Shown: piece after piece, positions 8,603 to 40,100 of the stretch
Layout: every line of letters starts with the position of its first letter
Position numbering within the stretch: position 1 is the stretch's first letter
Source: Nitrosarchaeum sp.
Lineage (GTDB): Archaea > Thermoproteota > Nitrososphaeria > Nitrososphaerales > Nitrosopumilaceae
Length of the DNA: 48,395 bases
Reading direction: 5' to 3'
NCBI GenBank assembly: GCA_023265135.1
Contig: JAHFUM010000001.1
Location: forward strand, 1 to 48,395
Notes under the pieces: generated by a model
Database searches by the model: none
What the model was told of the DNA's origin: nothing
The model's input: only the letters and a program-made list of their open reading frames with translations
Position numbers and translations under genes: made by a program

Positions 8603-9034
8603 TTATCTTTGATTGTTTTGTTCTAATCCGCGTTCTATTATCTCTAATGCATTTTCAGCTTTTTCAGGTCTAGGTAACTGAATCATAAAGACATTATCTT
8701 TTCCATAATGAGATTTTGGTGATGAAAGTGCAAGCATTGAAGTTTTTGCAAGAGATTGAAAAAAGAACAAATCTTTGTTTGCGTTGATTAACAGTTTTTC
8801 AACAATTCCACCTTGAGAAAATGTTAAAACAATTTCTACAAAAACATGGCCCAATCCATCTTGTAGTATGTTAAGATCTGTATTAATTGCAAGAGGCTTT
8901 CCAGCAATTCGAGAAATTATTTCATCATATTTTCTTTCATCTAAAATTATACAAGGAATATCCTTACCATCAAAATCAAATGTGGTTACACCGTCATGGA
9001 CTTGTTCAGATAGTTTTTTGAGTTCATCAGACAT
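8603..9034 (-). CDS. conserved-looking hypothetical protein downstream of antiporter
   Basis: A 143-residue soluble protein with alternating strand-like and helical segments (TTFDFDGKDIPCIILDERKYDEIISRIAGKP; HVFVEIVLTFSQGGIVEKLLINANKDLFFF). No catalytic or metal motif is recognised. Its ATG overlaps the end of the antiporter gene by 8 bp, so the two are co-transcribed and probably translationally coupled, which hints at a role linked to ion transport. The stop lies two bases after the tRNA-Gly CCA on the other strand. Confidence 0.6.
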   Translation of the reverse strand: MSDELKKLSEQVHDGVTTFDFDGKDIPCIILDERKYDEIISRIAGKPLAINTDLNILQDGLGHVFVEIVLTFSQGGIVEKLLINANKDLFFFQSLAKTSMLALSSPKSHYGKDNVFMIQLPRPEKAENALEIIERGLEQNNQR

Positions 9035-10364
9035 TTTTCTTTTCTAGTATTGGAACAATTTTGTCTCCTGCTTTTATCATAAACGGTGAAAGAAATGCAG
9101 TGACAATGGAAATCACACCGACTAATGGGAACAAAAATGCACTTACCGCACCAATATCCACTCCAGTTTTTATTATAACAATTGAAAATTCGCCTCTTGG
9201 AGCAGCTAGTGTAAATGCAGAACGAACAGCTTTGTAACTTTTTTGACGGAATAAAAAGTTACCAATCAAATTACCCATAAACTTCATACTGATTGCAACA
9301 ACAATTAACACAACTGATATCACGATATAATTTTGAAGTTGTGATACATCCATCAAAGCACCTACCGAGATAAAGAAAATAGCTACAAACATGTCTTTTA
9401 TCGGACTTGCCAAAAGTTTAGAGACTTCAGATGATTTAGATTCAGCCACTAGAACACCTGCAAGAAATGCACCTATAGCAACAGACAGTCCAACTATATT
9501 TGCTAATAATGCATAACCAAAACACACACCAAGAACACTCAATAATAAAATTTCATGGTGTTCAGATGCAGCAACTCTATCAATTAATGGCGTTATAATT
9601 TTTGTTCCTATTGTGAATGTGCCAACAATCAAACCTGTTGCAACAATAACTATAATCAAAATAGATTCTATAGATACAGTTCCAACTAAAGCAATTGATT
9701 GTAATGTGGAAATCAAAATAACTGCAATTACATCTTCTACAATCAATATTCCCAATACAAGAATTGTAGATTCTCTTTTTATTCGTCCCATTTCTTCTAA
9801 AATTTTTGCAATTACAGCAGTACTAGAAATTGAAAGTGCTGCGGCAATGAATAATGAATCAATTGAATTTAATCCTAATAAGATGGCAGCATAGAAAATT
9901 GCTCCTAATGTAGTAAACAGACCAACAGTACCTATACCAATTGCAAGTCTTCCAATGCTTTTGATTTTTGCGTAAGGAAATTCAATGCCAATTACAAAAA
10001 GTAGTAAGATAACACCTATTTCAGAAAATAGATTTAGTGCAGACGTATCAGACAGAATTCCTACGCCTTTTAACAGATCAGAAGGATGACTTCCTAGAGG
10101 AAGAATCCAAGACCAAAGTGGAGACAGAGGTCCTAACAACATTCCTGCAAAAAGATATCCTATGATCAATGGTTGTTTTATCTTAAAAAAGGCTAGAGTC
10201 ACAATTGCTCCAATAATCATGATAAAAGCTAAATCAGTGACAAACGAAGTGTGTGGAATGTGTGCAATCTGATCAACAAAACCGATTACAATCTGATTTA
10301 GAATATTATGAATTTCAGATGAATTAATCTGAAGTGCAATGTTATCCACAACATCATTTAACAA
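9027..10364 (-). CDS. CPA2-type monovalent cation:proton antiporter
   Basis: A 445-residue membrane protein with about 12 hydrophobic segments and the sodium/hydrogen exchanger (CPA2, KefB/NapA-like) pattern: the opening IKQPLIIGYLFAGMLLGP, the SISSTAVIAKILEEMG segment, and AIGAFLAGVLVAES. No C-terminal RCK (TrkA-N) domain is attached, so regulation would have to come from another protein, possibly the overlapping downstream gene. It would exchange Na+ or K+ for H+ to set internal pH or salt balance. Start is TTG; the nearby ATG is out of frame. Confidence 0.88.
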   Translation of the reverse strand: MLNDVVDNIALQINSSEIHNILNQIVIGFVDQIAHIPHTSFVTDLAFIMIIGAIVTLAFFKIKQPLIIGYLFAGMLLGPLSPLWSWILPLGSHPSDLLKGVGILSDTSALNLFSEIGVILLLFVIGIEFPYAKIKSIGRLAIGIGTVGLFTTLGAIFYAAILLGLNSIDSLFIAAALSISSTAVIAKILEEMGRIKRESTILVLGILIVEDVIAVILISTLQSIALVGTVSIESILIIVIVATGLIVGTFTIGTKIITPLIDRVAASEHHEILLLSVLGVCFGYALLANIVGLSVAIGAFLAGVLVAESKSSEVSKLLASPIKDMFVAIFFISVGALMDVSQLQNYIVISVVLIVVAISMKFMGNLIGNFLFRQKSYKAVRSAFTLAAPRGEFSIVIIKTGVDIGAVSAFLFPLVGVISIVTAFLSPFMIKAGDKIVPILEKKNV

Positions 10365-10483
10365 ATTTGTTTAAAAACAGTTGCGCACTAGTCAGACAAC
10401 AAAAATGAGTTTTTGAATACATAACTTTTATGTGAATTTATTATGGGTTTAACCTCTTTATGCCTAGTTATTATCAATCTAAT

Positions 10484-10547
10484 TGCAGAATGATGAGTAG
10501 GTCAACTGAAAATAATGTAGAGAAATGACCTGGGGTATCTGACTGCA
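10484..10547 (+). ncRNA. candidate C/D-box guide sRNA
   Basis: The sequence shows a perfect box C ATGATGA (10490-10496), box D' CTGA (10506-10509), a degenerate C' GAAATGA (10522-10528) and box D CTGA (10539-10542). A 5-bp terminal stem, TGCAG (10484-10488) with CTGCA (10543-10547), closes it. The two guide intervals are 9 nt (10497-10505) and 10 nt (10529-10538). This is the archaeal C/D layout that directs fibrillarin/Nop5/L7Ae to 2'-O-methylate rRNA or tRNA. Guide 2 is complementary to ATACCCC(A/G)GG-type sequence; the target is unverified. The internal boxes are weaker than the outer pair. Confidence 0.55.
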
Positions 10548-10570
10548 TAATTGGTAACGTCACAATTACC

Positions 10571-10604
10571 TAAATATTAATAGTACGGTACCATACGGTA
10601 CTAT
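10571..10604 (+). promoter_or_regulatory. TATA box with 10-bp direct-repeat operator
   Basis: A TATA-like TAAATATTAATA (10571-10582) is followed by two copies of TACGGTAC in a 10-bp period (TACGGTACCA 10584-10593, TACGGTACTA 10594-10603), ending one base before the ATG at 10605. The outer edges TAGTAC (10581-10586) and GTACTA (10598-10603) are also inverted. The spacing suggests a leaderless transcript with a repressor site, one helical turn per copy, between TATA and start. Confidence 0.5.
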
Positions 10605-10712
10605 ATGATTCAATGTGAATATTGCCCAAGAGGTTTCATTGATACAGCAAATGGACTAGCTGAAAAGACCTTTCATGAGTTACTTCATGAACCAGAAGTT
10701 GTCAACAAGTAA
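10605..10712 (+). CDS. 35-residue C2H2 zinc-finger-like microprotein
   Basis: The ORF starts at ATG 10605 and encodes 35 residues. Cys4 and Cys7 (CEYC) followed by Phe11, Leu18, His24 and His28 (FHELLH) follow the order of a classical C2H2 finger: C-x2-C, aromatic, leucine, H-x3-H. The Cys-to-His spacing is 16 rather than the usual 12. With no other domain, the whole protein is one finger. The promoter-plus-repeat directly before the ATG supports real expression. It may be a small DNA-binding regulator acting on its own repeat, but this is inference. Confidence 0.55.
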   Translation: MIQCEYCPRGFIDTANGLAEKTFHELLHEPEVVNK

Positions 10713-39999: not shown

Positions 40000-40100
40000 T
40001 GGCGCCGGGAGGGAGATTTGAACTCCCGTTCCCTTGCGAGAACGCGCTTTATGGTAAATTATTTCCAGGCGCGCGCCCTACCAAGCTAGGCGACCCCGGC
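40000..40100 (-). tRNA. tRNA-Ser(GGA) with a short intron, CCA encoded
   Basis: Read on the minus strand: acceptor GCCGGGG with TCCCGGC, discriminator G, encoded CCA (40000-40002). The D-arm is GCCT/GGGC with GG in its loop, the anticodon stem CGCGC/GCGCG, a 15-nt variable arm (TTCTC-GCAA-GGGAA stem-loop) and T-arm GGGAG-TTCAAAT-CTCCC. The long variable arm and G73 indicate serine. The anticodon loop is 21 nt, and removing 14 nt after position 37 leaves CTGGAAA with anticodon GGA. It decodes UCC and UCU. Confidence 0.93.
40049..40062 (-). other. 14-nt tRNA-Ser intron at position 37/38
   Basis: The intron ATAATTTACCATAA (minus-strand reading) separates A37 and A38. Its CCA can pair with TGG of U33-G34-G35, giving a 3-bp core rather than a full bulge-helix-bulge, so it looks like a relaxed splice motif. 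It would be cut by an EndA-type enzyme, a homolog of which lies at 4907-5470. The exact boundaries could shift by one or two bases. Confidence 0.7.

Follow-up and report, generated by a model that had tools for sequence, protein, structure and literature searches.

The window, the 48,395 nt stretch of DNA analysed here, contains a divergent gap between a gene encoding a Na+/H+ exchanger (positions 9027-10364, reverse strand) and an open reading frame (ORF) of 35 amino acids (10605-10712, forward strand), in which a 64 nt element is located on the forward strand (10484-10547). This element almost certainly encodes a C/D-box guide RNA, in an ammonia-oxidising archaeon of the Nitrosarchaeum type. 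A preliminary description had placed a candidate of this type in the gap and had assigned it a box C, a box D, an internal CTGA, a degenerate C′ and a 5-bp closing stem; the location and all of these components were confirmed by direct reading. The following features can be distinguished:

10448-10465, forward strand: BRE/TATA-like promoter block containing TTTAACCTCTTTATGC, with a mean identity of 0.964 within the genus
10484-10547, forward strand: predicted mature C/D-box guide sRNA of 64 nt, based on its boxes, stem, conservation and RNA-model matches across the order
10484-10488, forward strand: 5′ arm of the closing (terminal) stem, TGCAG, read directly and supported by covariation
10490-10496, forward strand: box C, ATGATGA, read directly and retained across relatives
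10497-10505, forward strand: D′ spacer of 9 nt, in which 10499-10504 (AGGTCA) is a strand of an internal helix and covaries with 10526-10531
10506-10509, forward strand: box D′, CTGA, read directly and retained across relatives
10515-10521, forward strand: degenerate box C′, ATGTAGA, which reads ATGATGA or ATGAAGA in many relatives
10526-10531, forward strand: TGACCT, the 3′ partner in the internal helix, placed by single-strand folding and covariation and sharing three bases with the start of the rRNA-pairing guide
10529-10537, forward strand: putative D guide, CCTGGGGTA, complementary to 23S UACCCCAGG and with G10534 as the N+5 guide nucleotide
10539-10542, forward strand: box D, CTGA, read directly and retained across relatives
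10543-10547, forward strand: 3′ arm of the closing stem, CTGCA, which pairs with 10484-10488 and is supported by covariation

The ordered C-D′-C′-D pattern occurs once on the two strands of the window; 100 dinucleotide-preserving shuffles yielded none, irrespective of whether a stem was required. The C-D′ and C′-D spacers are 9 and 17 nt in length, respectively, and both the closing and the internal helix are formed in the predicted fold of the free RNA (-15.9 kcal/mol; z: -2.6). No Rfam family was assigned to the element at the gathering threshold, the only matches in the window being two tRNAs, while the best match to a CD-box family attained 22.2 bits where 42 were required, with e-values of 0.16-0.7 to CD-box snoRNA models. 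A tRNA match at 40003-40100 (reverse strand) is unusually long (98 nt) and possibly contains an intron. Profile searches identified genes for fibrillarin (PF01269; e-value: 1.9e-87) and Nop5 (PF01798; e-value: 2.1e-68), which are separated by about 0.5 kb on contig C5.

The element is present in 17 of the 18 genomes of the genus, the single genome without a match being 61% complete, and 53 of its 64 alignment columns are invariant among these 17 sequences, against 3 of 48 columns far upstream. A covariance model derived from the genus sequences recovered the element in most genomes of the Nitrosopumilaceae-type family to which the window belongs and which probably includes Nitrosotalea (hereafter the first family). 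A second covariance model, built on 54 aligned sequences, recovered it in 59 of 70 genomes, and in 35 of the 37 good genomes, of another family of the same order, taken to be the Nitrososphaeraceae (hereafter the second family), as well as, at an e-value of ≤0.01, in 253 of a sample of 400 genomes from the order. Several low-scoring matches that do not resemble the element (L250, L251, L253, L254 and the second match in L068) were left out of the element set, as were L257 and L258. A few complete or fairly complete genomes of the first family, for example G199 and G098, yielded no model match; either the element is not universal in this family, or the search filters missed some copies. Box retention, which the preliminary description had left to be checked in close relatives, extends to distant relatives as well. 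The degeneracy of C′ holds for the window, but many relatives carry the canonical ATGATGA (14/52 aligned sequences of the first family and 22/32 of the second). The spacers measure 9 and 16-17 nt in the first family; in the second, nearly all sequences have spacers of 8-10 and 14 nt. In the closing stem, four of the five pairs are altered on both sides among 53 distinct sequences, with a G-C to G-U to A-U series evident in L014 and L016.

The 23S rRNA of the same genome contains UUACCCCAGGGAUAACAGG, with which the putative D guide forms nine of nine Watson-Crick pairs at a one-base offset from box D, the residue adjoining the box facing the target in a U:U mismatch. The pairing spans positions 2438-2446 of the E. 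coli 23S rRNA (numbered from the K-12 record), beside the peptidyl transferase centre, and the N+5 rule predicts the C at position 2441 as the candidate methylation site. In the preliminary description, the region 10529-10538 was considered complementary to ATACCCC(A/G)GG, with possible targets placed in the peptidyl transferase region of the 23S rRNA and near position 790 of the 16S rRNA. The former target is borne out by the 9 nt complement at the guide position, although the paired sequence is corrected to UACCCCAGG opposite 10529-10537, while the 16S site (AUACCCGGG) matches over 6 nt only. The same 23S site is matched in eight genomes of the first family, over 8 nt in one of them. A match of 9 nt is equalled by 1.7% of shuffled guides and, taken alone in a single genome, constitutes modest support.

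The guide reads CCTGGGGTA in 51 of 52 aligned sequences of the first family, which were collected without requiring the guide, and the 23S rRNA carries UACCCCAGG in 11/11 sequences read. The exception is G110, whose guide, CTCTGGGGTA, remains able to pair with the site by means of one G-U pair. All 30 displayed sRNAs of the second family carry CTAGGGTA, with the position of G10532 occupied by A, and the 23S rRNA of this family reads UACCCUAG (3/3 sequences read), with U at E. coli position 2443. Guide CTAGGGTA and target UACCCUAG were both read within one genome of the second family, G065, and the same-genome pairing refers to this genome only, the guide given for G072 being the typical family sequence and not taken from that genome. 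We consider this correspondence decisive evidence that the putative D guide co-evolves with its 23S target across the two families. Together with the rRNA complement and the conservation of the boxes, it upholds the original reading of the element as a C/D-box guide RNA.

The D′ spacer has no consistent rRNA target among eight genomes of the first family, the best Watson-Crick runs being 6-8 nt long and located at unrelated sites, nor does it match any of 30 tRNAs of the genome over at least 7 nt; a functional second guide is not supported. The best match for guide 1 in the 16S and 23S rRNAs of this organism, a 16S site with eight Watson-Crick and two G-U pairs, was set aside, being weakened by the occurrence of G at the base adjoining D′ in most of the genus. 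Within the spacer, AGGTCA (10499-10504) pairs with TGACCT (10526-10531) to form a 6-bp internal helix, for which relatives carry AGGTG/CACCT, GGGTA/TACCT, AGAG/CTCT and GGGC/GCCT. In the closing and internal helices together, 8 of 11 pairs are altered on both sides, in 47 such alignment cells; none of 500 shuffles scored as high, and while relatedness inflates these counts, the changes are nonetheless spread over several genera. The covariation score of the helices is 0.284, compared to at most 0.062 when the partners are slid. The helix is present in the Nitrosopumilaceae and absent in the second family, and the energy of the guide 1-guide 2 duplex is -8.5 kcal/mol in the first family versus -2.5 kcal/mol with shuffled guide 1, the corresponding values in the second family being -0.8 and -0.4 kcal/mol.

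Two guides are found in most archaeal C/D sRNAs (PMC4644070); moreover, the assembly lacks the 3′ end of the 23S rRNA, and the tRNA scan covered 30 of 46 tRNAs. The element might as such be a conventional double-guide sRNA, with a D′ guide directed at an rRNA, tRNA or mRNA beyond the targets found. We regard this as unlikely, given that guide 1 varies between lineages along with the 5′ part of the guide 2 region and not with any rRNA site, that its rRNA and tRNA matches are short and scattered, and that the D′ spacer, at 9 nt, is itself short. We tentatively propose, at slightly less than an even chance, that the D′ spacer, instead of guiding, contributes a strand to a conserved helix between the two guide regions that covers the 5′ end of the sole working guide and that the rRNA must displace, and that the resulting ribonucleoprotein (RNP) would be asymmetric.

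Archaeal C/D sRNAs are described as double-guide molecules that direct N+5 methylation, many of the sites lying close to the peptidyl transferase centre; some of their guides lack a target (PMC4644070). The element resembles the sR families of Sulfolobus, Pyrobaculum, Pyrococcus and Methanopyrus in the order of the C/D and C′/D′ boxes, the terminal stem, the guide beside box D, the N+5 register and the rRNA target, which lies close to the peptidyl transferase centre; in both cases the genome also encodes fibrillarin and Nop5. It differs from them in its spacers of 9 and 16-17 nt, as opposed to 10-12 nt in the sR families, in having one targeted guide, with the guide 1 strand pairing with the D-guide strand in a helix that covaries, and in its own conserved promoter block. 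It thus lacks two guides with spacers of about 12 nt, a typical archaeal trait rather than a strict requirement, and is classed here, on sequence grounds, as a single-guide, asymmetric form of C/D-box guide sRNA. Eukaryotic C/D snoRNAs with a weak C′/D′ are similarly asymmetric, with one working antisense element, and share weak Rfam similarity with the element; however, C′ is canonical in many of its archaeal relatives, and its terminal and internal stems are short.

Putative sRNAs of Methanothermococcus (L117, L119 and L131), Thermofilaceae, Micrarchaeota and Heimdallarchaeota (L140, L091 and L150) have the D guide CCTGGGGTA in common, with N and CTGA after it, but show 12-nt C-D′ spacers (canonical 12/12 in Methanothermococcus) and an unrelated D′ guide. 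In L091, two C/D-like matches adjoin each other. The 23S rRNAs of the Thermofilaceae and Micrarchaeota genomes, the two checked, carry G at E. coli position 2444, which gives a G-U pair with the guide. The canonical 12/12 sRNA of Methanothermococcus suggests that the 23S site may be methylated in several archaeal lineages, through descent or convergence. These sRNAs also bear on whether the element might chaperone 23S folding without methylation, on the view that its D spacer would be too long for the geometry of the archaeal RNP. Such roles have been proposed for C/D sRNAs (PMC4644070), and the optimal spacer in archaea is 12 nt, although this is not a strict definition (PMC8413462); with spacers of 9 and 16-17 nt, the methylation efficiency of the element is uncertain. 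A purely chaperoning function nevertheless appears improbable, as box D and the N+5 register are retained and the same D guide occurs in the canonical or near-canonical sRNAs of Methanothermococcus and the three other deep archaeal lineages.

The TTTAT of the promoter block (10457-10461) begins 27 nt upstream of the predicted 5′ end of the RNA. The BRE/TATA-like block is found at equal distance in most Nitrosopumilus-type relatives despite otherwise diverged upstream DNA, while different AT-rich motifs occupy this position in Nitrosotalea-type relatives. A TATA-like motif is found in only about 20% of archaeal C/D sRNAs (PMC7994747). A promoter shared with tRNA genes was considered and rejected, the AACCTCTTTAT block being absent upstream of 30 tRNAs of this genome, and a bacterial-type promoter scan was set aside as uninformative for an archaeal host. 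Just 3′ of the predicted sRNA, a short inverted repeat, GGTAA...TTACC (10552-10570, forward strand), is conserved in the genus and could be a processing or regulatory signal. Further downstream, a near-perfect palindrome of operator-like appearance, AGTACGGTACCATACSGTACT (10584-10604, forward strand), is strongly conserved in the genus; it is flanked on one side by an AT-rich TATA-like stretch and on the other by the start codon of the 35 amino acid ORF. The translated product of this ORF, MIQCEYCPRGFIDTANGLAEKTFHELLHEPEVVNK (10605-10712, forward strand), is conserved and shows a C-x2-C ... H-x3-H pattern, possibly a mini zinc finger, although a Pfam search returned no match.

This ORF adjoins the element in about 100 records, co-directionally and 50-75 bp downstream, an arrangement that would be expected of a cis-acting leader or operator with coincidental C/D boxes. 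The element is, however, about 500 bp from the ORF in nine records and unlinked to it in at least six, and it is therefore not the leader of that ORF, the start codon of which is furthermore adjoined by a TATA-like, AT-rich stretch and a palindrome belonging to the ORF itself; with the guide-target co-change in the 23S rRNA also left unexplained, we consider this reading very improbable. A chance match within conserved non-coding DNA, despite the AT-richness of the sequence and a p of about 0.02 for the 9 nt complement alone, is of negligible probability in light of the shuffles, the order-level conservation, the covariation and the guide-target co-change.

The element is thus very probably a C/D sRNA with its own TATA promoter, a guide on the D side only, directed at C2441 of the 23S rRNA, and a D′ spacer held in a helix. 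The RNA would be transcribed from this promoter and bound by L7Ae, Nop5 and fibrillarin at the C/D and C′/D′ motifs. The D side, as the sole acting guide, would pair through 10529-10537 with positions 2438-2446 (E. coli numbering), on the strand leading into the peptidyl transferase loop, and fibrillarin would methylate the 2′-OH of the C at position 2441 according to the N+5 rule. In the Nitrosopumilaceae, the D′ spacer is predicted to be sequestered by pairing over 6 bp with the 5′ portion of the D-guide region, such that a seed of about 7 nt (GGGGTAT) may remain accessible, with the rRNA then displacing about 3 bp of the internal helix to attain the full 9-bp pairing.

The main pan-archaeal survey of C/D sRNAs covered seven species, six of them thermophiles, and included no ammonia-oxidising archaeon (PMC4644070). 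We found no report of Nitrosopumilus C/D sRNAs in the openly readable main texts searched, and earlier predictions may exist elsewhere. The element represents a deeply conserved putative guide aimed at the catalytic centre of the ribosome, and the archaea that carry it are very abundant inhabitants of oceans and soils; the co-change of guide and target provides strong sequence evidence for one predicted methylation site. Furthermore, with its covarying internal helix and unequal spacers, the element lends itself to a clear test of whether symmetry is obligatory in archaeal C/D particles. If the RNP is indeed asymmetric, it would contradict the rule of symmetric archaeal methylation RNPs that function best with 12-nt spacers, and this exception would be fixed throughout a globally abundant archaeal family.
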